NCBI GenBank assembly: GCA_942159475.1
Contig: OW804097.1
Span: 34,980,298 to 35,044,297, forward strand
Length of the DNA: 64,000 nucleotides
Source of the DNA: Sthenelais limicola
Taxonomy: Eukaryota; Annelida; Polychaeta; Phyllodocida; Sigalionidae
Reading direction: 5' to 3'
Shown here: positions 17,566 to 64,000 of the stretch, in pieces
How positions within the stretch are numbered: position 1 is the stretch's first letter
How the letters are laid out: the number at the start of each line of letters is the position of its first letter
Program-made: the position numbers and the translations under genes
The notes under the pieces: generated by a model
Databases searched by the model: none
What the model was told of the DNA's origin: nothing
Seen by the model: only the letters and a program-made list of their open reading frames with translations

Positions 17566-18195
17566 ATGTTAAAGAAACTTTTAAGATGGAGTACACCATG
17601 TGTTGTATACATCCTAATGGCCTTCTTTCAACCAGCATCAAGTTGCAGTTTAACCTTTTGGGAACACTTCAGCATGGAAAAAATCCTTTATGTTGCAGAC
17701 ATTGTTGTCTACGGTGTTGAAACAGAAAGAGTTCCTGGTCAACATGGTTCCCGAAACGCCCTCTTTACTATATACTGCGTACTCAAGAACGACAATAACA
17801 ATCTACCTTTACCAGAAAATATCACCATCGACGAAGTAGAACCTGTGAACTCCTGTTCAGGTACGATGATACAGCCTAACACAGACACTATTCTAGCTCT
17901 GAAAAGGAACTCAGTTACTGGGGGGAATTTTACCTGGCACGAACCCAACCCCACGCCTGACGGAGCGGCATTTAAAGCTTCCAAGGTCAATCTGCAGAGG
18001 GCACTCAAAGTGTGTGGGTTGAACTCAGGCAAGGCACCAGATGGCAGGACTGTCTCTGCAAGTCCAACATGTCCAATGCTGGAGGGAAGTCTCACTCAAT
18101 GTTCGAACAAGACTGTTAAAACTTGCCAGTCTTGTGTGAATATTTTTGTTATAGTTTTGTTATCGATTGGTTTAACTGGTGTCTGTAAAAAATAG
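17566..18195 (+). CDS. Secreted or membrane-anchored NTR-like protein, copy 1
   Basis: A single-exon 209-aa CDS. Residues 1-26 are a signal peptide ending PASS, so the mature protein starts with Cys27, as in netrin-like (NTR/TIMP) modules. A beta-rich stretch follows (YVADIVVYGVETER, FTIYCVLKND), then Cys97, Cys150, Cys169, Cys179, Cys187 and Cys190 and sequons at Asn85, Asn121 and Asn181. A hydrophobic tail at 191-206 ending in CKK suggests a membrane anchor or GPI signal. The general arrangement recalls TIMP and CCDC3-like NTR proteins, but no diagnostic motif was identified, so the family call is tentative. The paralog at 23668 differs at about 18 residues. A 5' UTR splice acceptor seen in the other two copies (TCAG before ACTTTGATCC) is lost here through a 4-bp deletion. 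Confidence 0.75.
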   Translation: MLKKLLRWSTPCVVYILMAFFQPASSCSLTFWEHFSMEKILYVADIVVYGVETERVPGQHGSRNALFTIYCVLKNDNNNLPLPENITIDEVEPVNSCSGTMIQPNTDTILALKRNSVTGGNFTWHEPNPTPDGAAFKASKVNLQRALKVCGLNSGKAPDGRTVSASPTCPMLEGSLTQCSNKTVKTCQSCVNIFVIVLLSIGLTGVCKK

Positions 18196-23667: not shown

Positions 23668-24297
23668 ATGTTAAAGAAACCTTTAAAATGGAGTGCACCA
23701 TGTGTTGTCTACATCCTAATGGCCTTCTTTCAACCAGCATCAAGTTGCAAGCCAGTCTTTTGGGAACACTTCAGCATGGAAAAAATCCTTTATGTTGCAG
23801 ACATCATTGTCTACGGTGTTGAAACAGAACGAGTTCCTGGTCAACTTGGTTCCCGAAATGCCCACTTTACTATATACTGCGTACTCAAGAACGACAATGT
23901 CAATCTACCTTTACCAGAAAATATCACCATCGACGAAGTAGAACCTGTGAATTCCTGTTCAGGTACGATGATACAGCCTAACACAGACATTATTCTAGCT
24001 CTGAAAAGGAACTCAGTTACTGGGGGGAATTTTACCTGGCACGAACCCAACCCCATGCCTGACGGAGCGGCATTTAAAGCTTCCAAGGTCAATCTGCAGA
24101 GGGCACTCAAAGTGTGTGGGTTGAACTCAGGCAAGACACCAGATGGCAGGACTGTCTCTGCAAGTCCAACATGTCCAATGCTGGAGGGAAGTCTCACTCA
24201 ATGTTTGAACAAGGCTGTTAAAACTTACCAGTCTTGTGTCAATATTTTTGTTTTAGTTTTGTTATCGATTGGTTTAACTGGGGTCTGTAAGAAATGA
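23668..24297 (+). CDS. Secreted or membrane-anchored NTR-like protein, copy 2
   Basis: 209 aa, same architecture as the protein at 17566: signal peptide to residue 26, mature start at Cys27, NTR-like beta region, and a hydrophobic C-terminal segment ending CKK. Cys187 of copy 1 is Tyr here (KTYQSC), so one disulfide may differ. The third sequon (Asn181) is also lost. The frame is intact, the central 100 residues are almost unchanged, and the 5' UTR acceptor and upstream ORF are present, all of which suggest an active gene. Function is inferred only as extracellular; protease inhibition like TIMP is a possibility, not a finding. Confidence 0.78.
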   Translation: MLKKPLKWSAPCVVYILMAFFQPASSCKPVFWEHFSMEKILYVADIIVYGVETERVPGQLGSRNAHFTIYCVLKNDNVNLPLPENITIDEVEPVNSCSGTMIQPNTDIILALKRNSVTGGNFTWHEPNPMPDGAAFKASKVNLQRALKVCGLNSGKTPDGRTVSASPTCPMLEGSLTQCLNKAVKTYQSCVNIFVLVLLSIGLTGVCKK

Positions 24298-25650: not shown

Positions 25651-26877
25651 CTATAGCTCCCTATGGACTGTAACAGTAACAGCTTTTCCCTGGTCCCTTT
25701 CTTTAGCTCTTTTCTCCTTGCATTGTTGATGTAAGGCTAATACCTCTGGACATTTCCATTTTCCATGGTCTCTAGACAAGCAGAATTTGCATTTATTGCG
25801 ATTTTTCTCCTGATTAGAGTTGCCTGAAGCATCCGACTTATTCTCAACCTTGCCTGGTTTGTTATATTCGCCAGGTTTCTTACTGGCATAATATTGCTTA
25901 GGTATATAACTAGGATTTTGATAATTCCTATAGCCTTTTTGCTGCATCCTAAATGATTTAAATGCTGCAATTTCGGCCTCTAGCTCTTGATCTTCTTCCA
26001 CGAGAGAAGGTTCATCTTTCTCTGTCGATACTGCAGCCAAACTAACTTGTTTAGCCTCTTTTCCTTGGAAAGAAACCAAATTAGTTGGCATTTGATCTAA
26101 TAAGGAGGATCGCATTTCATTTGACCCTCCAGCACATCTCATTTGATGAGCTATATCGACAGCTATTTGTAGAGTATTGGGCTTATAATATTTCACCAAA
26201 AAAGCGATGAATTTGTGTCGTAGACCCTCACCAAAGAGCATGATTGTTTTTAGCCTAAGATTTTCTGGGTATTCATTATAGGCCTTTCTACACAAATCGA
26301 TTAAACTCTCAGCATAATGTTGAAAAGTTTCATCTTTTTGTTGGACCCTCGTTTCATATTCTCTGATTCTGTCCTGTGGGGTTTTCTCATCGAGTTGACA
26401 AGACAATCTCCTCAAGACAGCTTCTAGGGATAGTTCTGAAACATTCCCCCATGTAGTTTGTCCAATATGGCCAGAAGTGGCAATAATTAGCTCTCTAACA
26501 AGAGTATCATCATCCCAGCCATACAAATTAGCCCAATTCATGGCCCCTGCTAGATATTCGCTCCAGTCCGTACCCCTGTACTTTTCCAAGGGCTTGGGCC
26601 TAGGCACCTCACGAGGTCGATTCAATGCTAATCGTGGAGCCTGAAACGAGGTATTTATGTCTAACCTACTGATTTCCTGTTCCATTTCTACCATGGTCGA
26701 TTTCCTTCGAGATTTAATGCCTTTGTCTACTGGTTTGGTTACCATTGAGGCCATAGGGACTATTTTATTTGTTGGATTATGTGCTTGCACATTTCTCAAT
26801 GGAAGTTGGGTGATCGATGTGGCCGCACCCACAGATTGACCCATAGCTATGTTAAAATGTCGAATGTTTTTGGACAT
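25651..26877 (-). CDS. gag: Retrotransposon Gag (capsid and zinc knuckle)
   Basis: 408 aa. The Gag protein assembles retrotransposon particles and packages RNA. Residues about 95-260 have the helical Ty3-type capsid pattern (EKYRGTDWSEYLAGAMNWA, YETRVQQKDETFQHYAESL). A CX2CX4HX4C zinc knuckle lies at 363-376 (CKFCLSRDHGKWKC), followed by a basic tail. The start at 26877 overlaps the preceding ORF by 26 bp in another frame. It may be entered by frameshift or reinitiation, or the overlap may mark a mutation. This frame itself has no internal stop, unlike most decayed copies. Confidence 0.78.
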   Translation of the reverse strand: MSKNIRHFNIAMGQSVGAATSITQLPLRNVQAHNPTNKIVPMASMVTKPVDKGIKSRRKSTMVEMEQEISRLDINTSFQAPRLALNRPREVPRPKPLEKYRGTDWSEYLAGAMNWANLYGWDDDTLVRELIIATSGHIGQTTWGNVSELSLEAVLRRLSCQLDEKTPQDRIREYETRVQQKDETFQHYAESLIDLCRKAYNEYPENLRLKTIMLFGEGLRHKFIAFLVKYYKPNTLQIAVDIAHQMRCAGGSNEMRSSLLDQMPTNLVSFQGKEAKQVSLAAVSTEKDEPSLVEEDQELEAEIAAFKSFRMQQKGYRNYQNPSYIPKQYYASKKPGEYNKPGKVENKSDASGNSNQEKNRNKCKFCLSRDHGKWKCPEVLALHQQCKEKRAKERDQGKAVTVTVHREL

Positions 26878-27817
26878 TTTGCATTTGTACTCTCCTAGGT
26901 ATTACTGGAGAGAATTTAGCTGGTTTTGGAAGCTGTATAGGCTTAATCGGAGGATTTTTGGTCTGTTTGTATGGCGTTTTCCAGGCCAAACTAACATTAT
27001 CAACTTTTAAAGTATAATCGTCAAAATCTCCCCCACCTTCTGAATAGGTTTCACCATAAGAGTTGACTATTTTTTCAATAGCCTTCCTCCTGTTGGTAGA
27101 AATGTCTGGTACAGACTCCCAGAATTTTAAATTCTTAGGCTTTGTATTTTCGACAGGAATGATTATATTTTCCCCATGATCAGAAGATATATTTTCGCCA
27201 CCGAAACCGTCTGGCTGGAGGCCCAGCTTTTCACATTCGATCATTAAATGGTCTACACGACCCAAAGGTAATCGGTACACATTTGCAAAAACAGACTCGG
27301 CTAAAGTTTTTATATATATCCGATCTGCTGCTGTATAGGATTCAACTGTCCAACCATTGACGATTCCCAGCCTAATAATATCCTCAAGTGAGAGCATATC
27401 TGCAAAAGCAGGATTAGTAACTTGACTTGTTTGGCTGCTAGCCTTTTCATTGAAAACAGACCCAGCGATGGATCTGACCTTGGTCGTTCTCTGGGCTCGA
27501 CGATCGCGTCGGCCCATATTAACACCAGGATCGATTTCCTTTATTCCAAGCATTGTTTCCCATTCAAGTTTATGTTCAGGGTTTACTTGGTATGTACCCC
27601 TATCTAAACTATCAAGAGAAGCAGCTAATCATCCATCTAATTGGTGTTCCAAATCATCAGGTAATCGGTAACGACTTACTGAATCATCAAAGTCAATGGT
27701 TGTTTCTGAGTCTGCAGGATGAGAACTCAGGTTTAGCATAGGATCGCCGTAAGGCAATAATTCCTCACCAATAGTGGGGATATTTAAATGTCCATCTTCA
27801 GACATATGAATAATCAA
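26852..27817 (-). pseudogene. Upstream retrotransposon ORF broken by one TGA
   Basis: The frame opens 47 nt after the primer-binding site and continues to 26852, interrupted only by a TGA at 27629-27631. Sequence on both sides is open in the same frame, so the stop looks like a point change or a readthrough site. The product has no recognised domain. Its position suggests an N-terminal Gag or matrix-like part. The following Gag frame is offset by one base. Confidence 0.6.
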
Positions 27818-34300: not shown

Positions 34301-37300
34301 TACAGGTATTTCAGTGACACCTGTACTGAGAGCTAGGTCAATAATTTGATTTAGTCTCCCCCCCCCCCACCTTAAATGAAGAACCACAAAAGGCAGTGAA
34401 AGAAAATGTGATGTGTTTCAGGGAAAATGAATCACAAGTCACAAAACTGATATTATCCTAAGTAATTCATTCATAAGAACCCTGGCTTGGAATGTTTTCA
34501 TTTTTGGTGTTCTTTGAGCTACTAGTAACATTAATACATGCACCAAATTTCAAGATGGTGTATTACATAAATCCATGCATTTCTAAGGTTATCGGTTTAT
34601 TTTTTATTTTTATTAGGAGTGTTTATCAGTCAATATACATACATAACAATGTGATATAAACATAAAGACAATCAATAGATAAAGCCGATAGTATACTGAA
34701 CCAGTAGGAAATAGCCTCAGTCTTAGTCTGGCTAAGTCTGGTAAGTTGGCCATTACCTAATAGACCTTGACTTTTATCATGTAGCTGTATAGAGAAAGGA
34801 AAGGACCTATCTAAGGACTAGAGAACGCTAAGGTGATGGATGAAGTGATGAGGAATAGGAGCACATTAAGTCAAATTAAATATATAAGGGTAGCAAGCTT
34901 TCGGCCTTGGTTAGGGCCTTAAAACGTTCATATGTTTCAATGTTTCTGGTTTCAGGGTCAAGATTGTTCCATAGCTTTGCTGTCTTCCTTTGTATACAAT
35001 GTAAATCAAAATTCACAGTATTGGGTCTTTGTGAAATCAAAATTGGTCCATCCCACTGTCTTGTTGTTCTTCTTTCATTGTTTAAAAATTTGTTCTTTTT
35101 GCTTCTTCTGAAGGCAAAGTTCAAAATATGTGCTTTCCTTCTGTCCTCAAGTTTGGGCACGTTGGCCAGTCTATGAATCAACAGGGTATCAGTTAAAGTA
35201 GGTAATTTTAAAGCAACTTTTATACACTTGTTGTGGAGGATTTGGAGAGAATTCAATTCATGTATGGTACAACCACTATAAGTAATGTCACCATAATCAA
35301 ACAAAGGTAGAATGTGACTCTTAAAAATTCTCAGTAAAACAAACTGAGGTACCAGCTTTGAAATTCTTCTTAGCAGATAAAGCTTATGACTTACAGATTT
35401 ATGGGTTTGTCTAACTTGGGCAGAGAATTTTAATTGTGAATCAAGGGTTATTCCCAGGTATTTGTACTCTTCTACATTGTCTAGCTGTGTGTTATTAATA
35501 GAAATATTAGGTCTGACATTTGCAACTCTTGATCTTGGTCCTCTTAGGTGCATACATTTAGTCTTGGTTACATTCAAAGTTAACTTGTTGCTCTGGCACC
35601 AATTCCAAAAATTTACAGTATCCTCTTGGACTTTGGTATTAAGTACAGCTAAATCTTTATCATGACAATATATAACAGTATCATCAGCAAACAACTTAAT
35701 CTTACAATGTTTGAGGCTATGCTCCGCATCGTTAATATATATTAGAAACAATAATGGGCCAAGTATAGAGCCCTGAGGAACACCATAACTAATTTCTCTG
35801 ACTGTTGAGGTAACATTATTACAAATAGTAACTTGGGTCCTATTAGATAAGTAATCTTTTAATAAAGACAAAAGATTTCCTTTGACTCCATATTTGCTCA
35901 ATTTAGAAAGTAGAATATCGTGGTTAACAGTGTCAAACGCTTTCTTTAGATCAAAAAACACAGCAAACGATGTAGCACCATTATTCCTTTCATTAAGTAT
36001 ATCATCAGTTAGATCAGCTATGGTATCTATGGTCGATTTTCCCTTTCTATAACCATTTTGTTTGTCAGAAATGACTTGGTTATTTTCAAAAAATTCTATC
36101 AGTCTGCTATGTATTATTTTTTCCATGAGTTTTGCTTGTAGAGGTAATTGAGTAATAGGTCTATAGTTAGACATAATGGATTGATCACCACCTTTTGGAA
36201 GAGGAGTAACACTCCCATTTTTCCAGGAATGAGGTATACATTTTGATGAAAATACAAGATTGAAAATATGACACAAAACAGTCGGTATTGCCATAAAGAC
36301 ATCTCTAAACACTAGAGATTTGATATGTTTTATATTACTAGACTTGTTAGTATTTATTTCTCTGGAAATTTTTTGAATTTCTTCAGGAGTAGTGCTTATG
36401 ATATCTAGAGAATTTGGACATTCAAGGCCTATGAAGTTCCATTGGGCATTGATCTGTTCGGCCAGTGATTCACCTATTGATGCAAAGAATTCATTAAATT
36501 TGGAGGCTACTTGCGTTACTGGTACAGGTGCATTAGAGGTGCTATCTATAATATTTATCTCTTGGTCTTTATTTTTTGATTTCTTGGGTAGTATATTATC
36601 TACCAATTTCCAAAATTTTTTGTCATCATCGATACATTCATTGCATAGTTGAGTTATGTATTTTCTCTTAGCCTTTCTGCACAGTTTGGTTAGATTATTT
36701 CTAGCTTTTTTGGCATGTAACCAATCTTCACGTTTTTTAGTTCTTTTAGCTTTCTTTAGGGCTTTGTCTTTATCTCTAATCATAACTAATAGGTCGTCAG
36801 TTAGCCATTTCTCTCTAGGCGGAGTGATTTTTCTTTGTACAACAGGACATGTGGTGTTAAGGTTATCACTGATCATTAGTATCAATTTTTCCCATGCTAG
36901 TTGAGGGTCAGACATTTCAATTATACAATTCCAATTTAAATATTTAACTGCAGTAATAAAATCATGTGAGTTATAGTTCTTGTAACTTCTGTATTCGACA
37001 ACCCTACACACTTTTTTCTTTGGCTTTTGTTTTTTAAGGGTAATGAAGGTCATTAGATGGTCAGCAACCCAGATATCAATAACCCCACTAGAACTTACAT
37101 AGTCTTCTTTACTAAAAATAAGGTCAATGCATGATTCAGAGATGTGATCTCTGTCTCTCCTAATGTCAAAACGAGTAGTTTCTTTTATAAATTGTGTAAG
37201 ACCAAATTCGTGAGTAATATCAGTGAGAGATGTAACATGCCTACAATCTTTATCGAACATGTTTATATTAAAGTCTCCTGCCACAACAATATCACAGTTG

Positions 37301-40300
37301 TTATGATTTAGCATTTGAGATGATAAAGTACTGTGTAGTTCATGGAGAAACAAATTACAGTCACCATCTGGTGGTTTGTATATTCCAATCAAGTGTAAAT
37401 TTCTCTTATTTTCAAATAAAATAGTACAGCAGATCAACTCTATGTTTGGATTTGATTTAGACATATTCTCTTGTATTTTAAAAGTAAGACCATTTTTGAT
37501 ATAACATCCTATGCCTCCACCTCCTTTAACTTGGCCATTGTCATATAACACTGCTCTGTCATTTCTAACGATATTATTGTAACCTTGAATCTCAAAATCA
37601 ATTGACCTGTCGTAAGTTGTTAAGAATGTCTCTGTACATATTACAATTTCAGGGGTAAACTGAGAGATCCCATTTTTTAGATTAAATAGATTGGTTTTGA
37701 GCCCTCTTACATTGACACTTATGATACTGAAACCATTCTTATCAAAACCATGCTGGTCACCCATTAATAGTGTTGAATTGGATCACCTTGTGTGAACTCC
37801 TATAATGATGAGGGTGAGAGAGGTATAGTATATACCTATGGATGAGAAGAAGAATAGAGAAAATGTCTGTAGAGAGATAATTAGCTCTCTACAACTCACT
37901 ATTTTTTTGAATATATAGACTAGGTTTCTGATATAAAAATAAAAATACATGGACTAGAACAAGTAACATGCGACAATATCTAGAAGACTAGATCTAGAAG
38001 ACTAGAAGAATATATGTGTCGGTTTCTGTGTAACAATGAAGTAAAGTAAGATATCACCTCGCCGACACTTATAACATGAAGTGGAACGAACTGCTGCCGA
38101 GCAGTCATACTCTGTACATTTTTTTGTGGATTAACCTTTTGATTGCTGCCCTGCAGTCATATACCGTACATGGATTAGATTATGATAGAGGAGAAGCCCG
38201 GGACTGAACCACTCAGGCGTATATCGTGTGTAATCGTATTGCTGACCTAAAGTCATTCACCGTACATTTGACTATAGCAAAGCATAAGTTAAACAACATA
38301 TTTATATTTTGGTTGCTGCCCCACAGTCATATACCGTACATGAGTTAGAAGGCACCTATTATAATTCATCGTACATTGATATTTGATTATACCGACTGCT
38401 GTCCTAGAGTCATACACTGTACATTTGATTATTTGCTCAAGGGTAGATGCTACAAAATAAATCATTCAGGTTGTTGTCGCACAGTCATACACCGTACATG
38501 AACTTGCCCGGGACTGAACCACTCAGGCATATTTCATTTGGTAATGATACTGCTGCTTGAAAGTCCTTCACCGTACATACTCCGTACATTAGTTGAATAA
38601 TATACTATAGGAAGTGGTTAATATTGCAGGATAATAACATTAATTAGTACCAATATCTAGTTAATTTAAGACATTGATTCGACAGATTCTGGTTTCTTTA
38701 GACCTTCAATGATAGTGGTGAAGAAGTTATTTTTCATAAAATTTAGGATATTCGCTTCTAAATTCCTCCAGAAAGTACAGCTTTGTTTATTTATTAATTC
38801 ATCACATGGGTGTATTCCATCTTCAAGTGAGTTGTAATCGTGTCTTATCGATCGACCATTTGTCATGTGATTAAATCTTGAGATCCAGGGGGTAGAAACA
38901 TTGTTTTCCTGGTTGATCTGTTGTATAAACCTGTTGATTTCAATGATGCTTTCATTTAATATCTGTTGTTTGTCTATGTCGAGATTTGAGCAAAATTTTT
39001 CCAGATCTGCTCCTGTGATTGGGCACATTATTATTGGCGAACATGGATGACGATTCCTTAAACGATTAGTGGTTGTTGATATTTCTGACTTCATATGTAA
39101 TTGCAGCGATTCGGTCGAAGGCCATGAGAAGGTGAAGACATTTTTACCTCGTTTGTTTCTTGTTTTTGTAGTGATATCACATATACCAGCCATTAAGTAC
39201 ACTATTGTGGGTCTATTGGTGGAGAGAAAAATATCGGCATGACGACATACTTGAGAGAGACGAGCACCTGGGTGAACTTCAGTTTTAAATATAAAATCCG
39301 GTGGTTTGTCAAGATAGGTCCTGCTAGGGTTAAGCTTATGTTTTAGTTTTCGTCCTCGTGAGTCACTGAATATGTTGGCTATGATTTGGGAACCATATGT
39401 CGGCGAGTGATCCATTTAACTTCTTGTTTACTTTACACGAGGCTATCGAAGGACGGCCCTGACCTCCTCAAGCTTCCGCCCGAGGATGTTTCGGAAGCCT
39501 TCGGTAGTTCCCGTGATTTCTTTAGCTTTCCGGATATCTTTACCAGCACCCCATTTCTTGTTCTCGGTACACTCATATAGGTGTTTGTTGCCTGTAGACA
39601 CTAGATAATCGCGATGCTTTGTATTCTGGTTGAATTTGGCCACTAAGACCCTTAACATTACATCATCTTCTCTAGCATTCCACTCGGCATTGTCGTTCGG
39701 GAAATTCCGTGCGAGGTACTTGCAGCGCCTCGGGTCCTTCTCGTTTGTTATTGTGAGAGCAAGATCTGGGTCACCGAAGTGAATGGCCTTCTCCGCCTGG
39801 AACATGGCCTCCGAGCTTTTGTACACATATCCAGTGTCGTTGTCTACGATCCTACAAGGGCTAAAGTTGGAGAGATATGCTCTCTCCCCTTTGAAACCAA
39901 TGCCTTCGTCTCCAGTAGCTTCGATTGCCGTAGAATTAAGGTTGACGTCGGCAGGAAGACGATCCCAGTCGCCCCATTTAACCTTCCTATCATTGATGGT
40001 TAATGTAAGGCCTCTGACTTTGGTCGTTCGGTAACCAGCTCCTTTCCTAGCCACATAAGCGAGTGCACGCAGGTCACCCTGTTTCTTCCTATCCTCAACT
40101 GACAAGTCATCGTTTAGAAATACTCCATTGTAACCTACTCTCAACTTCTGCGCATTCCTGAACATGGCTGCCTTTTGCTCAACGTTTCTCAAGTGAATCA
40201 TGAGGTTCCTCGCCTTGTCGGGACGTTTCTGGCCCAGTCTGAAGGCTCGAAGAGTGTCATTAGCAGTGAAGTTAACCCCAAGGTGAGTTAACAAATCATC

Positions 40301-43300
40301 CATTTTTTCCCGGAGATCCTCATTGTCTTGCTCGGCCAAGCCCGTGACGACCACGTTCAGTGATCGCTTCAGCCTGTCAGCGTCGTCAACTCGATCTGCA
40401 ACGGCTGTCAGTTCACTCTCCTCCCGGTCAGACTTCGCCTCTAGCTGTCGTACACGATTTCGAAGCTTGGTGTTGTTTTTACGTTCTTCGTCCAATGTCT
40501 CTCTTAGGTAGTTCAGTTCTTGGCTATTGTTCCTCACCAAATTGTCGAGAAACAACAACTTTTTCCTGATCAAATCCAATCGAGACTTGTCTGTTTTGGC
40601 ACCAGCCGGCCACTCATCCAACCCTAGTAGGTCGGCCATGTTGGGTTCGCCAGCCTCCGACCCGTCGTCATTCCGCGCGAAAAACATTTCAGTTAATTGT
40701 GGGGTAAATGTCCAGGTTTTGAGGATGAAAAGTATTCAATGACTGACAGAACTCTTTATATGTCCGACAAACTCGATATTTGAGCAGTAATCCAGCTGAT
40801 GCCCTACTTCAGTGAGATATAAGGGAGAGCTTGAAGCAACTACATGTGGTTGACTCAAGAATTGCCAAGTTATCGGTACCTATAGAGTAAATTAAGCTAC
40901 TTCACTAGTAATTGTCTACTCAAAAATATTCCAAAACTGTTTTTCAAAAATAAAGATATGAAACTTAAAATATAATAGTACTTATTAGATGCCCTACTGT
41001 TAACTATCATTGAAATCGGCTTTATCTCATCTTTTCAAATATGTGATGTGTTTCAGGAAAATGATTCATAAGTTGCAAAAATAGATTTTGAGATATCATT
41101 ATATTTGAAAAGATGAGATCAAGCAGATTCTTATGGTAATCTAATAATCTGATACCCAATATTTCCCATATAAGTATTTCTAGATTTTAAGTTTGATATT
41201 TTCATTTCTGAAAAAAAAGTTTCCAATATTTCTCGGGGCAATAAACAGTAAAGTAATTAAATATACTCCATATGAGGACCTCTAAAACGAAAAGATATAT
41301 TAAATACATTGTCCTGAAATTCCAATATAGTGATCTTGTAAAATAAACACTTTGAAAAATACCATTTTGCGACTTGTGACTCATTTCCCTGAAACACATC
41401 ACATATGGCCATTATCACAAACATTACTAGTACATATACCCATAGTTCCGATGTTCTATAGGTATAGCATTGGAGTTTTCCTGTACAATTCTAATGGGCC
41501 AAAGTTACTGGGCTCTGCTTTAGTTCAGACATTCAGCTATTGTCTACATTGCATATATCCAGTATAGTTCAGGGGTGATAGTCTGACACACAGCTGTGGA
41601 CACCAAAAAGCCTGCCATGTTCAAGGATGACACTCTTCACACATATATTGAGGGAGGCTATCAGCAAGTTGCTGCTCTAACCTCTGGGTTGTGTATGCAT
41701 CAATTATTCTGTTGACCATTGAGAACTATTGTCAAATAGCACATTTTACACCTGCCCCCTTCTCCTCCCTTCCCCACCTCCACACACACTCTAGCTTGTC
41801 CCCACCCCGCAAATAGCTGATAACTTCCTACACTACACCACTGGGCAGCTTAGGCTCTCCTTAGTTCAGACATACAACTATTGTCTACATTGCATATCCA
41901 GTATAGTTCAGGGTTGATAGTCTTATACACAGCTGTGGACACCAAAAACACTGTCATGTTCAAAGGTGTGACTTTCATGTATATATTATGGGGAGCTCTA
42001 TTTTCCTCTTATAGCTTTCCCTGGCCCACACATATCAGAAACCACTAAAAGTTGGTAACCCTACGAATTTATCCTCCATTTGCTGTGACTGGGCAATTCC
42101 AGGTGGACAAGTTCTATAATAAGAAAAATGTGCCCCATGGGGTGGGGGAATTTACACAAATCTCTTGCCCTGGGGGGCCGGGGATTTCAGCATATTTCCC
42201 AAAACTCCTAGGACATTCCCCTACATCCCCGGGGGTGGGGGGGGGTTGCAATTGACAAGTGCATTATGACTCATTTTCCTGAAACACATTACATTTATTG
42301 AAATTGTCTGAGGTTGCGAGCATCATGGGTTCTCGTTGGATCGATATCTTAATTGGAGATGTTCTCTCAGAATTTACATCTGATTGTGCTTTTACAGCCA
42401 TTCTTGGGCACAATATATTTGTTTTCACTCTTTCATAATATAATGCAAAAACTACTGAAAGAAAGTGGGGAGGGAAAAGCGTACTTTTAAAAAGATTTCT
42501 GAAGTATGCACTTATATTTGCATTTAACTATACTGCCGCTAACGTCAACCACTTGCATTTATATGGTGTGTGTTTACTTAATAAAGAATTAAATGAATTG
42601 GATGATGCACTCTTCAAAGGCTATTGTATCAAATACAAAATGCTGCGTGCTGAATAGCAAACTCTGAATACTTATATACATGAGTCAGATTTTCAGAAAA
42701 TGTACAATTGGCAGATCTACACATTTAGGAAGTTCTCATACATTAGGCTGACACATGAAGAATACCAGGGATATCTGAGTATATTTGGTATCACATTGAT
42801 TTAAAGTATCAGTTCTGTTATGTTAAGCTTCACTTTGAAGCACATTTTTGTCTTAAATTTGGGTTATTTGAGAGGATTTGTGAAGGTGAATTGTACATTT
42901 TCTGAAAATCTGCCTGTTATATACAAATCTTCCAAACCTGTCCATGGACGTATGCTGACGCATTATAATCATCAGTCCTGAGGTACGCTGACGGGTAAAT
43001 TGCTGAGCTTCCATTGAACAACCAATTCAGTCTGTAATGGAAACATTTATGCTAGTATTGTGTAGCATAGAATAATTCATGGGCATATTATTATGATGTT
43101 TGTCATCCTTTTCCCCCAAAGTACTCCTGTGGTTGTCATGCAACACATATATCGCTTTGGCTATGTTGTTTTAGATCAAATGCATGAATGCGAATATGCA
43201 CAACTTATGCGAACTCAAATGTGATGTGAAAATGAGTCACAAGCCGCAAAAAATCGATTTTGAGATTTTATCATATTCTAATGAGAGTAAACAGTAGGAC

Positions 43301-46300
43301 ATCAAAGAAGTATCTCTATATTTTCAGTTTGATATTTTTATTTTTGAAAATGCATTATTTCTGGGTGCACATTTACTAGTAAAGTAACTAGATATACTCG
43401 ACAAGATGACCTTACAATATCTTAAATACACTGTCCTGAAATTTGGTACATGCATTCATGCTACAATAAGCATTAAACACCTCAAAAATGACAATATTCC
43501 CACAAAGACATCTTATAAATAAAACACTTAGAAAGTTAACAATTTTGCGACTCGCGACTCATTTTCCTGAAACGCATCACAAGTGCAGTTGCAGTTGTTT
43601 GTTGGAGGTGAGCAATGATGTAAAGCATGACTTACCTATCATTCCGATGCATGGTTTTCTCCTTACATATACTTTCATACCCTTTGCTGTTCCTGCACCT
43701 TGGGAACCCATAGTACCCCCATTTGCCACCAGGTCGTAAGGTTCTCGCCAGCTTCAGTGTACTCTCCATGTACCTCCTATGGAGGATAAATGTTTTTTGT
43801 TGTTTTTTTTAAAACGAACTTTATTCAGGTTGATGATTGGTATATGGGTCAGATTTTCATATATGAGCGCACACAGCAAAGGCCTTATTGATGCTTGGGC
43901 GTTCACTAGACAGAGGCATGTGGGTCAGATTTTCAGAAAATGTACAATTGGCCTTCACCAAACCTCTCAAATAACCCACATTTAAGAAAAAAAAATAGCT
44001 TCAAAATGCAGATTAACATAACAGAACTACCACTTTAAATCAATGTGATACCAAATATACTCAGATATACCCGGTATTTATCTTTTTTTAAGCCTGATTT
44101 AGGAGAATTTCCTAAATGTGTAGAGCTGCCAATTGTACATTTTCTGATTTTCTGAAAATCTGACTCATGTATATAAGTATTCAGAGTTTGCTATTCAGCA
44201 AGCAGCATTTTGTATTGGATACAATAGTCTCAGTCGAGAAAAGATTTAATTAGGCCTTTGAAGAGTGTATCATCCAATTCATTTAATTCTTTATTAAGTA
44301 AACACACAACATATAAATACAAGTGGTTGACGTTAGGGGCAGTATAGTTAAATGCAAATATAAGTGCATACTTCAGAAATCTTTTTCCTAAATTTCCTAA
44401 ATGTGTAGAGCTGCCAATGGTACATTTTCTGGAAAATCTGACCCACATACAAACCCAGCTAAACAACAAAAACATAGTAAACAATAGCAAAATCAATATC
44501 TACTTAGCAGCAGTTTCAAAGTCTGTCTTGGCCTGTGCCTTCACCTGTGCTGGCGGCCATGTTGGATGTTGGGACTCCACCAGTTTCTCAGACTTCTCCT
44601 GGTAGATGAGTTGTGTGTCAAGGTCACGCTCCCATATAGGCCGCCATGACTCCCAGTCTATCACTCCTACACCTGTGGCAAATAGGTTTTTAGTCAACCA
44701 CATTTTTATAATAATGTATAAATTTGATTATTATCCTCCTCAAGCATAGAGGGGTCAGGTTATCAGAAAATGTACAATTAGCAGCTCTACACATTTAGGA
44801 ATTTCTCCTGAATTAGGCTGAAAAATGAAGAATACCGAGTATATCTGAGTATATTTGGTATCACATTGATTTAAAGTATCAGTTCTGTTATGTTAAACTG
44901 CATTTTGAAGCTCATTTTTGTCTTAAATCTTGGCTATTTGAGAGTATTGGTAAAGGCGAATTGTACATTTTCTGAAAATCTGACCCAGTCTAGAGCGGAG
45001 GAGATTATAACCCAGTGCCGGAGGGGCTTGTATTCGCCAATCACCACCTAACCCTGTAACCAGAGGTGCGAACCCCAGAGTGGGTCACACACTCATTCTG
45101 CTATGTGTAACTCACTTGAACACTTGTTGGAAAATCTTTTGTGTTTTACTTTTTTATTGTTTATTTGAATAAAGGGGAGGTCTGGCCTAAAGCCTAATCG
45201 TCCCACTGAACCCACTCCGTTCTTCACATGTTTCTTCCACACTAGCCAGCCGAGGGTCCTGGGGTTATAAATGATATTTTAAATATGTAGTCTATCACTC
45301 ATAGACCTGTGGGAAATGGGTTTTTAGTCAACCAGGGATGCTCCATCTCTCCTTATGGCCAAGTGATTGTATTGGGTTTTCTTTTATATTTATATATTTT
45401 ATTTGTTCTATGATGATTAGACCAAATTAATTATGTAATGCTCAGACCTCACCTGGTAATAAAGTAAAGGACCAATAATGGCAAAATATAGCCCCATAAA
45501 AGGCAGCAACAAAAGAAAGACAGAATTAAAGAACAGTGTAAATTGTGGCAGCTTAAATATCATCTATGCAAACATCTATAGTAATAGGACAAACCAAAAA
45601 AAAAGCGAACATATGGCAGACATTAAGCACAGCATAAATAAATCAGAAGTAGGAAACGTTTCAAAAAGAAGGACAATGAAAGGACTAAAGATTATAGGCT
45701 TGTTATACTAACACCCACAGAGCAAAACGAACACGATTGGATCCACAGAGTACAGAATGATCAACCCCATGGGACGAATGTAAAATGTTCTGAATTCAAA
45801 TGAGACGAAAACCTCCTCCAAAAAGCCCTGTCAAAAGATGTGTCTATTTGGTGCAATACCATAGAGAGAAAATAAAAGTAAATGAGTCACAAGTCGCAAA
45901 ATTGATATTTTTCAAAGTGTTTTTATCACAAGATCTCGTTATTGAAATGTTCTGATTTTTCGGGGGTTTAGCAATCATAGTCATACGAATCCATGTACCA
46001 AATTTCGGGATATTGTTTTAAATATATCGTTTTGAAGGCCTTTATATGAGTATGTTTAGTTAGTTTGCTGGTAATTACCCATCCAGAAACATTGCAAACT
46101 TTTTTTTACATATTAGGTGTCCTAGTGTTTACTATCATTGGACTCAGCTTGATCTCCTTTTTTCAAATAATATTATGATGATATCTCAAAACCCATATTT
46201 TGCGACTTATGACTCATTTTCCTGAAACACATTACAAAATTAATGGTCCGTGTCACTCAAACACAGAAGTTGATGTCAAATGTAAGTATTTTATTTACCT

Positions 46301-57335: not shown

Positions 57336-58129
57336 AACTCTTTGTTATAGTAAACTAAATACAACTACAGTAATCAAGGTAAATAAGTGTAGAGAATTGG
57401 CTCATGTGACATGAGAAAATAAAAGCAACATATGTCTCAATAGTTATGATGTTGCCATGTTTGTTAGTTACCTAATTCCACTATCAACCAATGAAGACTG
57501 GACAGACGTTTTACCTCTTACAGTATACATCTAATTTGACCAATGGCCAAATCAAATGTTGTAAAAATTTGTCTTGAGTTTTAAGAGCTAATATATAGTT
57601 TGGCGCTGTATTCCTTAACGGGAAAGGGGGAAGGGGGAAGGGGGAAGGGGGAAAAGGTAAGGGGGGAAAAGTCCCGATGTTTTGGTAATTTAAGTGTCAT
57701 AAACGTCGGCTACGTGATATTTGAGTGTCATAAAACGTCGGCTGATATCAAGGGGAGAGCATTAAAGCCAAGACAGGAGGAACTTTCCCCCAAATTGGGG
57801 CGAGGGAGGAGAGCCAACCCCATGGCCCAGCTGGTTTTTTATGAGGATGTTAACTGATTAACAGGAACTAATGGGATTCCTTATTCCACACATTGACATC
57901 AGAGAGAAATCACCGTTGTTTGATTATTCTGTCATAAACTATAACTCTCATGTACGCTTGGTATATGTGTGTGGCGCTGGTATATCAAATTTCATTTTAT
58001 GCTGCCCTGGTTGGGGCTCTTGCAAAACAAACTTATATACCTCTCTCTACTGTCATGTTGTGAGTTTTACTGTTACGGGTAGATTTCACAATATCACATA
58101 TTGACAGTATTGGCCATCTTCACAGTCCT
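57336..58129. other. No gene recognised; (GGGGGAA)n repeat
   Basis: A simple repeat of GGGGGAA units spans 57620-57672. Two near-copies of ATAAACGTCGGCTACGTGATAT flank 57700-57745. Confidence 0.6.
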
Positions 58130-58365
58130 GGGTCAGATTTTCAGAAAATGTGCAATTGGCAGATCTACATATTTTGTAAATTCTGCTAAATTGGACTGAG
58201 AAATCATCAACACTAGGAAGGTATGAGTGTATTTGGTGTTGCCTTGATTCAAACAGTCTGTTTGGTTATGTTTAACAGAATTTTTAACCTGATTTTTGTC
58301 TTAAATTTGGGTTATTTGAGAGAATTGGTGAAGGTGAATTGTACATTTTCTGAAAATCTGACCCA
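58130..58365 (+). mobile_element. MITE family A
   Basis: Full-length, intermediate subfamily like the copy at 31768. Confidence 0.88.
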
Positions 58366-59115
58366 TATATGATTACCATGATGATGGCAGATGATGGTGG
58401 CTGATGATGGGAAGAATTAGCAACTGGAGTATTCTAGGACTGGTTCATTTTAAGTCAAGTATTGTACTGTTCCCAATAAAAAAAGCCAACAAGGGTCTCA
58501 ATCCTTGACCCAAACTTTATTACAGACAGAGCAGTCTAGGCCCAAAGTTGAGAGAGTCCCTTCAAATGGAGGGAAAGCTTCTTGCCTCAAACCGCAAAGT
58601 GGCATTATGATTCCATTAAGACTGCAAAATGTCATTATATTCCCATTAGAACGCTGAGTCCTAGGCCAGGAAACCGATAAGTGAAGTAGGCGTCTAATCA
58701 ATGACGTCACTGATCATTCTTATCTGATCTGAGGGTTTGTACCTAGACTGAGAGGGCAAAGCAGCTATCACAAGAGAGCAGAGAGCGAGCAAGAGAAGGA
58801 TACATCGAAGCCAATATGCAATGAAATAAAGAATAGAAGAACATGTTCAGTTCTAGGTGTCAATTTGATTGAAACGTATCACAGATTGTGAAATATCGAA
58901 AAAAAAAATCTGTTTCCAATATATAAATTCATACATTTTGTGGGGTTTTCAAATATCCATTATATCATTTTCAAATTGAACTCTTCCCTTACGAATTAAT
59001 TAAAGACATCTTTGATCAGATTTCAAGTGTCCCAGGGTGAGTAATGCGTTCCAATATTTGGTAATCTTAAACAGGAGCCATGCCAACGTGCACCTGTTCC
59101 CATCAGTTCACATAA
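58366..59115. other. No gene recognised
   Basis: Mixed-composition sequence; no domain-bearing frame on either strand. Confidence 0.5.
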
Positions 59116-62391: not shown

Positions 62392-63550
62392 TTTACGCCA
62401 TGTTTCGCAACTGATTAGGTTCCAGGGGTTCAGGTGACTCGGTATAGAAATTCAAAACTGATGGATTTCTCTAAAATCTTAACCAATGAAACTTTACATG
62501 AAATAACGACTAACTCAGGACTAACATTTAGATGCTTCCTTTCAGGAATGGCAACCATGCTGCCAACCAGCATGATAGTATGAAGAGTAAACCTGACTGA
62601 GTCCAGAGTGTGAGAGAGATAAATACAGTATTCATTTAGAAATAATACATCATCATTAACATTGAATTAACTCCTAGGTATTTATAGCAAAAATATTCAA
62701 TATATTTATTTGGGAAATTAATGTGGTGGGCATCACACGTATGTGTTAGGCCCATTCATTACCGCAAGAGGGACCCACTATGTACTCACCTCCATTACCT
62801 CTATATATGGTCTCTGCACCTTTCCGTCCGCCTCACTCACATCATAATCACCTTCTAAAGTTCCCACCCACCCACAACCTACTCTCATCACTTCACCCAT
62901 AAAAGGCTTATATCACCAAATTTATTCATCATTTTACCAATTTTACAAATTAAAAATCATTTTACCAAACTTTATATTTTACAAAATAAAAAAACCCAAA
63001 CAAGCCTTTTCCTTCACTTGTTCCTCGAATGCGTTAATGTATGAACTATTTGTATATCTTTTTATATTGCAAAAGATTATAAGTGGTAAATCAGAAATAC
63101 ATGGCGAGTTAAATTCTATACCTTTTAATATATAAGATGGTTACATTGACAATTGAAGAAACCAAGAATTATGAAATTACACCAAAAATATTTCCTACCA
63201 GAAAACAAAGAAATAATGATATCATAGCAAAAACCATAATGTATTAGGAAAACTATGTGTGTTGGAAATAAAGGATACAATCATACATGATAAGTCATTT
63301 ATATACATCATGTATTTATATGTATATCATTCCTTTAGATTAGACCATTATGAGTTTATGCTCTTAATTTTTGTTTATTTGCATGAATTGTGAAAATGCA
63401 TTTGGGCCCACTTCAAATTAGGCCATGTCACCATGAAAGATGTATTATATATTATATAAGATGTATTATATATATATTATATTATGTATCATGTTATAAG
63501 ATGAATAGAATAAATGAACTTAAGGCAAGTGACACTTACATCTATATATT
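62392..63550. other. No gene recognised
   Basis: AT-rich sequence with a palindromic TATATA tract at 63440-63500. Confidence 0.5.
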
Positions 63551-63785
63551 GGTCACATTTTCAGAAAATGTACAATTGGCAGCTCTACACATTTAGGAAA
63601 TTCTCCTAAATTAGGCTGAAAAATGAAGAATACCAGGTATATCTGAGTATATTTGGTGTCACGTTGATTTAAAGTATCAGTTCTATTCTGTTAAACTGCA
63701 TTTTGAAGCTTATTCTTGTCTTAAATGTGGGTTATTCGAGAGGATTGGTGAAGGTGAATTGTACATTTTCTGAAAATCTGACCCA
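63551..63785 (+). mobile_element. MITE family A
   Basis: AAAGTATCAG subfamily; left end TGGTCACATTTTCAG, with ATAT on both sides. The remaining 215 bp of the window hold no recognised feature. Confidence 0.88.
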
Positions 63786-64000
63786 TATAAATGAGCCTTC
63801 AGGTCAAAGTGTCTTTTTGGTGGGACTGCATGAAATAATGTCAAAGTGCATTGATATTGTGCAAAAGTTTAGAAATGGCTCTTGTGTCAATCGTATATTT
63901 ATAATTAAATTTAGTGTGGGATTAATTATAATCTATATAATTATGTAAGTAGAAATGTTTCGTGGACATATCAATAAAAATTGAGTTGAACAATTGCTAT

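Follow-up and report, generated by a model that had tools for sequence, protein, structure and literature searches.

Anatomy of the insertion

A stretch of 64,000 nucleotides from the polychaete Sthenelais limicola (contig OW804097.1, positions 34,980,298 to 35,044,297 of the forward strand; hereafter the window) holds a long interspersed nuclear element (LINE) in which the first open reading frame (ORF1) ends in a NADAR domain. ORF1-NADAR, ORF2 and a third frame coding for an endonuclease and a reverse transcriptase (EN-RT) are contained in one insertion of 6,272 bp (34597-40868), the 3' end of which is A-rich. The surrounding DNA is a repeat family whose other copies in the window continue across 34589/40881 without the insert, and a perfect 9-bp direct repeat, GTTATCGGT, is found on both sides of it (34588-34596 and 40869-40877). 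The uninterrupted repeat copies and the flanking direct repeat indicate that a single insertion carries all three ORFs, and therefore that the NADAR fusion belongs to the mobile element and not to a neighbouring gene. With endonuclease and reverse transcriptase in one ORF, a target-site duplication and an A-rich tail, the insertion has the marks of a non-long-terminal-repeat (non-LTR) retrotransposon with an apurinic/apyrimidinic (APE)-type endonuclease. It is a complete three-ORF element of a recently active family, with the following features (window positions, amino acids abbreviated as aa).

34597..40868, minus strand: complete LINE element, 5' end at 40868 and 3' end at 34597, delimited by the repeat interruption and the 9-bp direct repeat
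40869..40877, no strand: target-site duplication GTTATCGGT, copy at the 5' end
39443..40687, minus strand: ORF1, 414 aa, coiled coil, RNA recognition motif (RRM), C-terminal domain (CTD) and NADAR
40361..40591, minus strand: ORF1 coiled-coil helix, residues 33-109, from DSSP of the predicted model
39941..40360, minus strand: ORF1 L1-type RRM and CTD, residues 110-249
39446..39922, minus strand: ORF1 NADAR domain, residues 256-414, from the Pfam match and the alignment to 8bau
38666..39415, minus strand: ORF2, 249 aa, SGNH-hydrolase-like (Pfam Lipase_GDSL_2, E=0.0026, below cut-off)
37765..38665, minus strand: spacer of 901 bp without an ORF of at least 100 aa, diverged internal repeats at 38137-38578
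34876..37764, minus strand: ORF3, 962 aa, APE-type endonuclease and reverse transcriptase (RVT_1, E=5.9e-39; Exo_endo_phos_2, E=1.4e-6)
34597..34615, minus strand: A-rich 3' tail, read from the sequence
34588..34596, no strand: target-site duplication GTTATCGGT, copy at the 3' end

The diverged repeats of the spacer between ORF2 and EN-RT (37765-38665) are centred on the motif ATGTACGGTGTATGACT and are perhaps regulatory.

The NADAR fusion, its copies and its conservation

A NADAR domain in one frame with a LINE ORF1, as read in the initial annotation, was confirmed by a Pfam profile search, in which the match to PF08719 reached 99.5 bits against a gathering cut-off of 35.1, and by the fold of the C-terminal domain, which is that of NADAR/YbiA. 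The remainder of the protein has the order and fold (coiled coil, RRM, CTD) of a type II, or L1-type, ORF1 protein (ORF1p). ORF1 is, by prediction, an L1-type RNA chaperone with a C-terminal NADAR hydrolase domain. The Phytophthora nicotianae NADAR used for comparison (8bau) has no RNA-binding fusion in the chain compared. Residues E293, K300, W336, E372 and W379 of the window protein align with its residues E43, K50, W89, E125 and W133, which contact ADP-ribose (PMC11543638); the distal-ribose glutamates (E293 and E372) and the pyrophosphate lysine (K300) of the NADAR active site are thus all present. In a bacterial NADAR the equivalents of E125 and K50 are reported to be required for efficient hydrolysis, with arginine able to substitute for the lysine in vitro, and guanine-ADP-ribose in DNA is hydrolysed by a eukaryotic enzyme of the family that has the aligned residues (PMC11543638).

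The initial annotation held that a lack of further copies would point to a one-off chimera; many copies were found. Searching the genome of the same organism (1.13 Gb, 161 contigs) with ORF1 gave at least 106 matches, 86 of 106 without an internal stop, and at least 97 loci after pieces less than 3 kb apart were joined, the window locus included; both counts are lower bounds because scoring covered only 101 of the 5,530 first-look candidates. When the same genome was searched with the NADAR profile, all 150 loci scored (150 of 5,561 candidates) exceeded the Pfam cut-off. Among these, 148 lack a stop, 110 lie in open frames of at least 500 aa and 92 in frames of 570-710 aa, and none is within 5 kb of the set from the ORF1 search. 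Sequences were fetched for 23 of the 97 ORF1 loci (L010-L032), the selection favouring long matches. In 21 of these loci ORF1 is followed by EN-RT in the same orientation (exceptions L012 and L016; L020 has residues 1-132 only), and an ORF2 match is present in 20 (exceptions L016, L028 and L029). Eight copies of the 73% subfamily share an identical 5' start point, and copies of this subfamily terminate in TAAA-rich runs. Two loci on different contigs, L023 and L024, are 99.763% identical across 5,911 bp, which indicates recent transposition. For the other copies, an automatic scan for target-site duplications gave matches of 4-6 bases only, and their boundaries rest on shared ends alone.

Four loci with stops, a frameshift or truncation (L013, L016, L018 and L019) were excluded from residue counts and from estimates of the ratio of nonsynonymous to synonymous substitution rates (dN/dS). 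E293, W336, E372 and W379 are invariant in all 20 intact ORF1 copies (the window and 19 loci). Among 11 representatives, the median dN/dS (9 of 55 pairs with usable dS) is 0.072 for NADAR, 0.101 for RRM and CTD, and 0.125 for the coiled coil, so that NADAR is under purifying selection no weaker than that acting on the other parts of ORF1. For three close copies, dN/dS is 0.073-0.091 over the whole of ORF1, 0.087-0.093 for EN-RT and 0.114-0.190 for ORF2. According to these figures NADAR is about as constrained as EN-RT and more so than the SGNH-like ORF, and the domain appears to be retained by selection.

The Pfam match of the window ORF2 to Lipase_GDSL_2 (18.7 bits) is below the cut-off of 32.9. 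Its Ser-Asp-His triad (S19, D199 and H202, in what we take to be SGNH blocks I and V) is invariant in 9 of 9 aligned ORF2s, the ORF2 of L017, which has one stop, being left out. The Asn presumed to mark block III (GxND) is replaced, the window reading G-I-C-D, with Cys79 invariant in 9 of 9. Four relatives searched singly matched no Pfam family at 0.01, profile searches of the PDB with ORF2 gave no SGNH chain, and a single-sequence structure model (predicted local distance difference test score, 34) was not used. An SGNH esterase with the same kind of triad motifs is found in the LINE accessory proteins of ZfL2-1 and CR1 (PMC3905857), where it lies within ORF1, whereas in the window the SGNH-like protein is a separate ORF between ORF1 and EN-RT and has its oxyanion Asn changed to Cys. 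In the 64% subfamily copies L028 and L029, tblastn found no ORF2 match between ORF1-NADAR and EN-RT, and in L028 no SGNH-like look-alike ORF of at least 60 aa was seen; NADAR is kept in both, so the SGNH-like ORF may be dispensable.

Lineage and relatives

The reverse transcriptase (RT) box of the window element reads PQGSILGPLLF, compared to RQGCPLSPLLF in human L1, and 271 residues extend from FADD to the end, compared to more than 500 in the 1275-aa L1 ORF2p. The window RT also scores L1 and R2 nearly equally (57 vs 52 bits), and an assignment to L1 is supported by none of these three features. A box of this kind followed by about 270 residues after FADD is what we take to be a mark of CR1/L2 (Jockey superfamily). 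Together with the type II ORF1, these motifs point to a CR1/L2-like RT, as judged by motifs and ORF1 type and not against labelled CR1/L2 or Tx1 references. Type II ORF1s, which occur in CR1 and L2 besides L1, share the coiled coil, RRM and CTD with the window protein in the same order, but those described in PMC4120745 carry PHD, esterase, CCHC or zinc-finger/leucine-zipper parts and none has the NADAR of the window element.

Two protein searches returned 10 other proteins in which an RRM/CTD-like part is followed by NADAR (P0001-P0007 and P0057-P0059, with P0001 beginning within the RRM/CTD-like part). An eleventh relative, P0060, has a partial NADAR match that lacks the E43/K50 stretch, and P0061 and P0062 are ORF1-like with no NADAR match. 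The RRM+CTD and NADAR trees of 12 proteins, in which support is uneven and branches are long, share their main split, separating the window, P0001 and P0006 from the rest (94/95 and 99/98), as expected if the fusion was inherited as one unit. Three loci with a longer ORF1 were read in the same genome: a 647-aa frame with NADAR followed by a 971-aa EN-RT (L033), a 658-aa frame with NADAR followed by an 894-aa RT frame with no endonuclease match at 0.01 (L034), and a 780-aa frame with NADAR followed by an SGNH-like ORF (motifs DSRG, GICD and DGLHP) and a 980-aa EN-RT (L035). In a quick RT tree of 45 rows, the window family, the P0008-P0020 kin and L033/L034 form one group (Shimodaira-Hasegawa-like approximate likelihood ratio test, 98). 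In a second quick tree, of 32 rows, which includes L035, this locus groups with L033/L034 (95) and the window family with the P0008 set (98), and the two sets are not one clade. On these two trees, a single capture of NADAR is likely, short of proof.

In a further NADAR tree, to which 8bau, YbiA and the stand-alone NADAR of locus L036 were added and which is weak at depth, these three cluster (83/87) apart from the LINE groups. Phage NADARs are 32-34% identical to that of the window (20 listed of 270 records), and the P0003 NADAR 40%. No relative was found among viral contigs searched with the ORF1 profile (one peptide pattern) or among GTDB contigs searched with the NADAR domain alone (six patterns), and a profile search with EN-RT gave one distant RT locus, L001. 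Locus L036 (C1:66982000-66985500 of the same genome) has a stand-alone 160-aa NADAR ORF at 1140-1622 (Pfam E=2e-30) and, immediately after it at 1700-2965, an ORF of 421 aa with no Pfam match at 0.01; the locus is not LINE-like and is possibly another mobile or virus-like element. Two more NADAR frames of 162 aa are present in this genome.

The initial annotation knew of no described LINE with this domain, a view overturned by a brief mention in PMC12477816, according to which the ORF1 proteins of several Crassostrea gigas Tx1 LINEs appear to contain YbiA-family NADAR domains; the principle is therefore already in print. These oyster elements (Tx1 being their Repbase label) resemble that of the window in having NADAR in a LINE ORF1 protein. 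The main text of PMC12477816 states that the domain is there and suggests RNA processing; it gives neither the anatomy nor the copy number of the elements, and no RT test or analysis of selection. The oyster elements may be of the same lineage as that of the window. The same paper describes a Gypsy lineage of Ectocarpus that has likewise captured NADAR, but as an LTR element with the domain in Pol; horizontal transfer was suggested as possible, almost all blastp matches being bacterial. Beyond this paper, no further report of a NADAR-LINE was found in open-licence PubMed Central (PMC) papers, Repbase entries, supplements and subscription papers being outside the search. As far as that search goes, the following are new: the anatomy of an entire element, the number of its copies, the signs of selection and the contrast between SGNH and NADAR.

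Elsewhere in the window, short interspersed repeat families (D1-D9) are abundant; they resemble miniature inverted-repeat transposable elements and have ends such as GTCAGATTTTCAGAAAATGTACAATTGGCA on both strands. By eye, a 408-aa ORF with a CCHC-like stretch at its end appears gag-like, and two ORFs of 209 aa, almost identical to each other, rich in cysteines and beginning with what resembles a signal peptide, appear TIMP-like.

42669-42932, 44739-45002, 58117-58380, 63537-63800 and others: short interspersed repeats resembling miniature inverted-repeat transposable elements
25651-27553, minus strand: 408-aa and 233-aa ORFs
17566-18195 and 23668-24297, plus strand: 209-aa ORFs

Possible roles of the NADAR domain

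As is established for L1, ORF1p of this type forms trimers and coats the RNA of the element. A NADAR domain at the C-terminal end of such a protein would therefore travel with each ribonucleoprotein particle (RNP), many copies to a particle. The domain would remove ADP-ribose; guanine in RNA or single-stranded DNA is the most likely site, with RNP proteins or end-linked ADP-ribose as alternatives. Left in place, ADP-ribose would block reverse transcription or flag the RNP for host restriction. On the simplest reading, the element thus shields its own RNA, complementary DNA, target DNA or RNP proteins from ADP-ribosylation. We give a probability of roughly 45% to this reading, in which NADAR rides with ORF1p on the RNP of a complete, recently active CR1/L2-like LINE and removes ADP-ribose that blocks reverse transcription or marks the RNP for restriction. 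The initial annotation had proposed ADP-ribose removal against a host response, which is compatible with the kept active-site residues and the known guanine-ADP-ribosyl hydrolase activity of a eukaryotic NADAR. For animal RNA viruses whose polyproteins contain a NADAR or Macro domain, it has also been argued that the domain counters host ADP-ribosylation, the NADARs acting on macromolecules (PMC9503650). These viruses are likewise selfish elements with an ADP-ribose-processing domain, but not retrotransposons, and the string "transpos" is absent from the text of that paper.

Several observations weigh against removal of ADP-ribose on the RNP. K300 is conserved in 17 of the 20 intact copies; the other three, L030-L032, are those read from the 44-47% subfamilies and have L or M at this position. 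R93 of 8bau, a phosphate contact, corresponds to E340 in 20 of 20 copies, and the window protein further differs at G78, V81, Y84, D86 and D130, several adenine-side contacts being changed. Replacement of the E43 equivalent of a bacterial NADAR by Ala made little difference in vitro, although the residue was needed for rescue in cells (PMC11543638). The dN/dS values come from few, related pairs, and known NADARs also act on riboflavin intermediates (PMC11543638) or in RNA processing (PMC9303266).

This last activity is central to an alternative we consider unlikely, namely that NADAR is a binding or RNA-processing module and not an eraser, which recognises ADP-ribose-like ends (e.g. NAD caps) or assists in the processing or trafficking of the element's RNA; catalysis would then be of secondary importance, or missing from some subfamilies. 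The loss of K300 in L030-L032 favours such a module, RNA processing has been proposed for the Ectocarpus and oyster NADARs (PMC12477816), and SNA-3 of C. elegans, which has three NADARs, functions in SL1 trans-splicing (PMC9303266). A binding-only role, however, predicts freer drift at E372, whereas none of the 20 intact copies has lost either glutamate or either tryptophan, and the lowest dN/dS within ORF1 being that of NADAR also counts against it. Less probable still is the destruction of soluble ADP-ribose derivatives that serve as immune signals or toxins, or of another N-glycoside near the RNP, instead of modified nucleic acid or protein. A role of this kind was proposed for phage NADARs (PMC9503650) and YbiA acts on riboflavin intermediates, but a domain attached to a protein that coats RNA is more likely to have its substrate on the RNP than in solution, and the target argued for the animal RNA virus NADARs is macromolecular. 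That a one-off chimera or an assembly accident put a host NADAR beside a LINE can be dismissed in view of the many copies in several subfamilies, the stop-free matches (86 of 106), EN-RT downstream at 21 of 23 loci, the relatives in other sequence sources and the intact target-site duplication.

Should ADP-ribose removal on the RNP be the role of the domain, a radiation of animal LINEs would have fixed a de-ADP-ribosylating enzyme in its RNA-packaging protein; animals would then restrict retrotransposons by ADP-ribosylating nucleic acid or RNPs, and the elements would carry an eraser as counter-defence, a broader picture which we regard as rather doubtful. What NADARs do in eukaryotes, including animals, has been described as unclear (PMC11125620), and a LINE family in which purifying selection maintains the NADAR active site across many copies offers a testable handle on the question. 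NADAR genes counted in animal genomes may partly be retrotransposon ORF1s. In 2013, the SGNH esterase was described as the one case of an enzymatic function in an ORF1p (PMC3905857), and NADAR would be a second kind.

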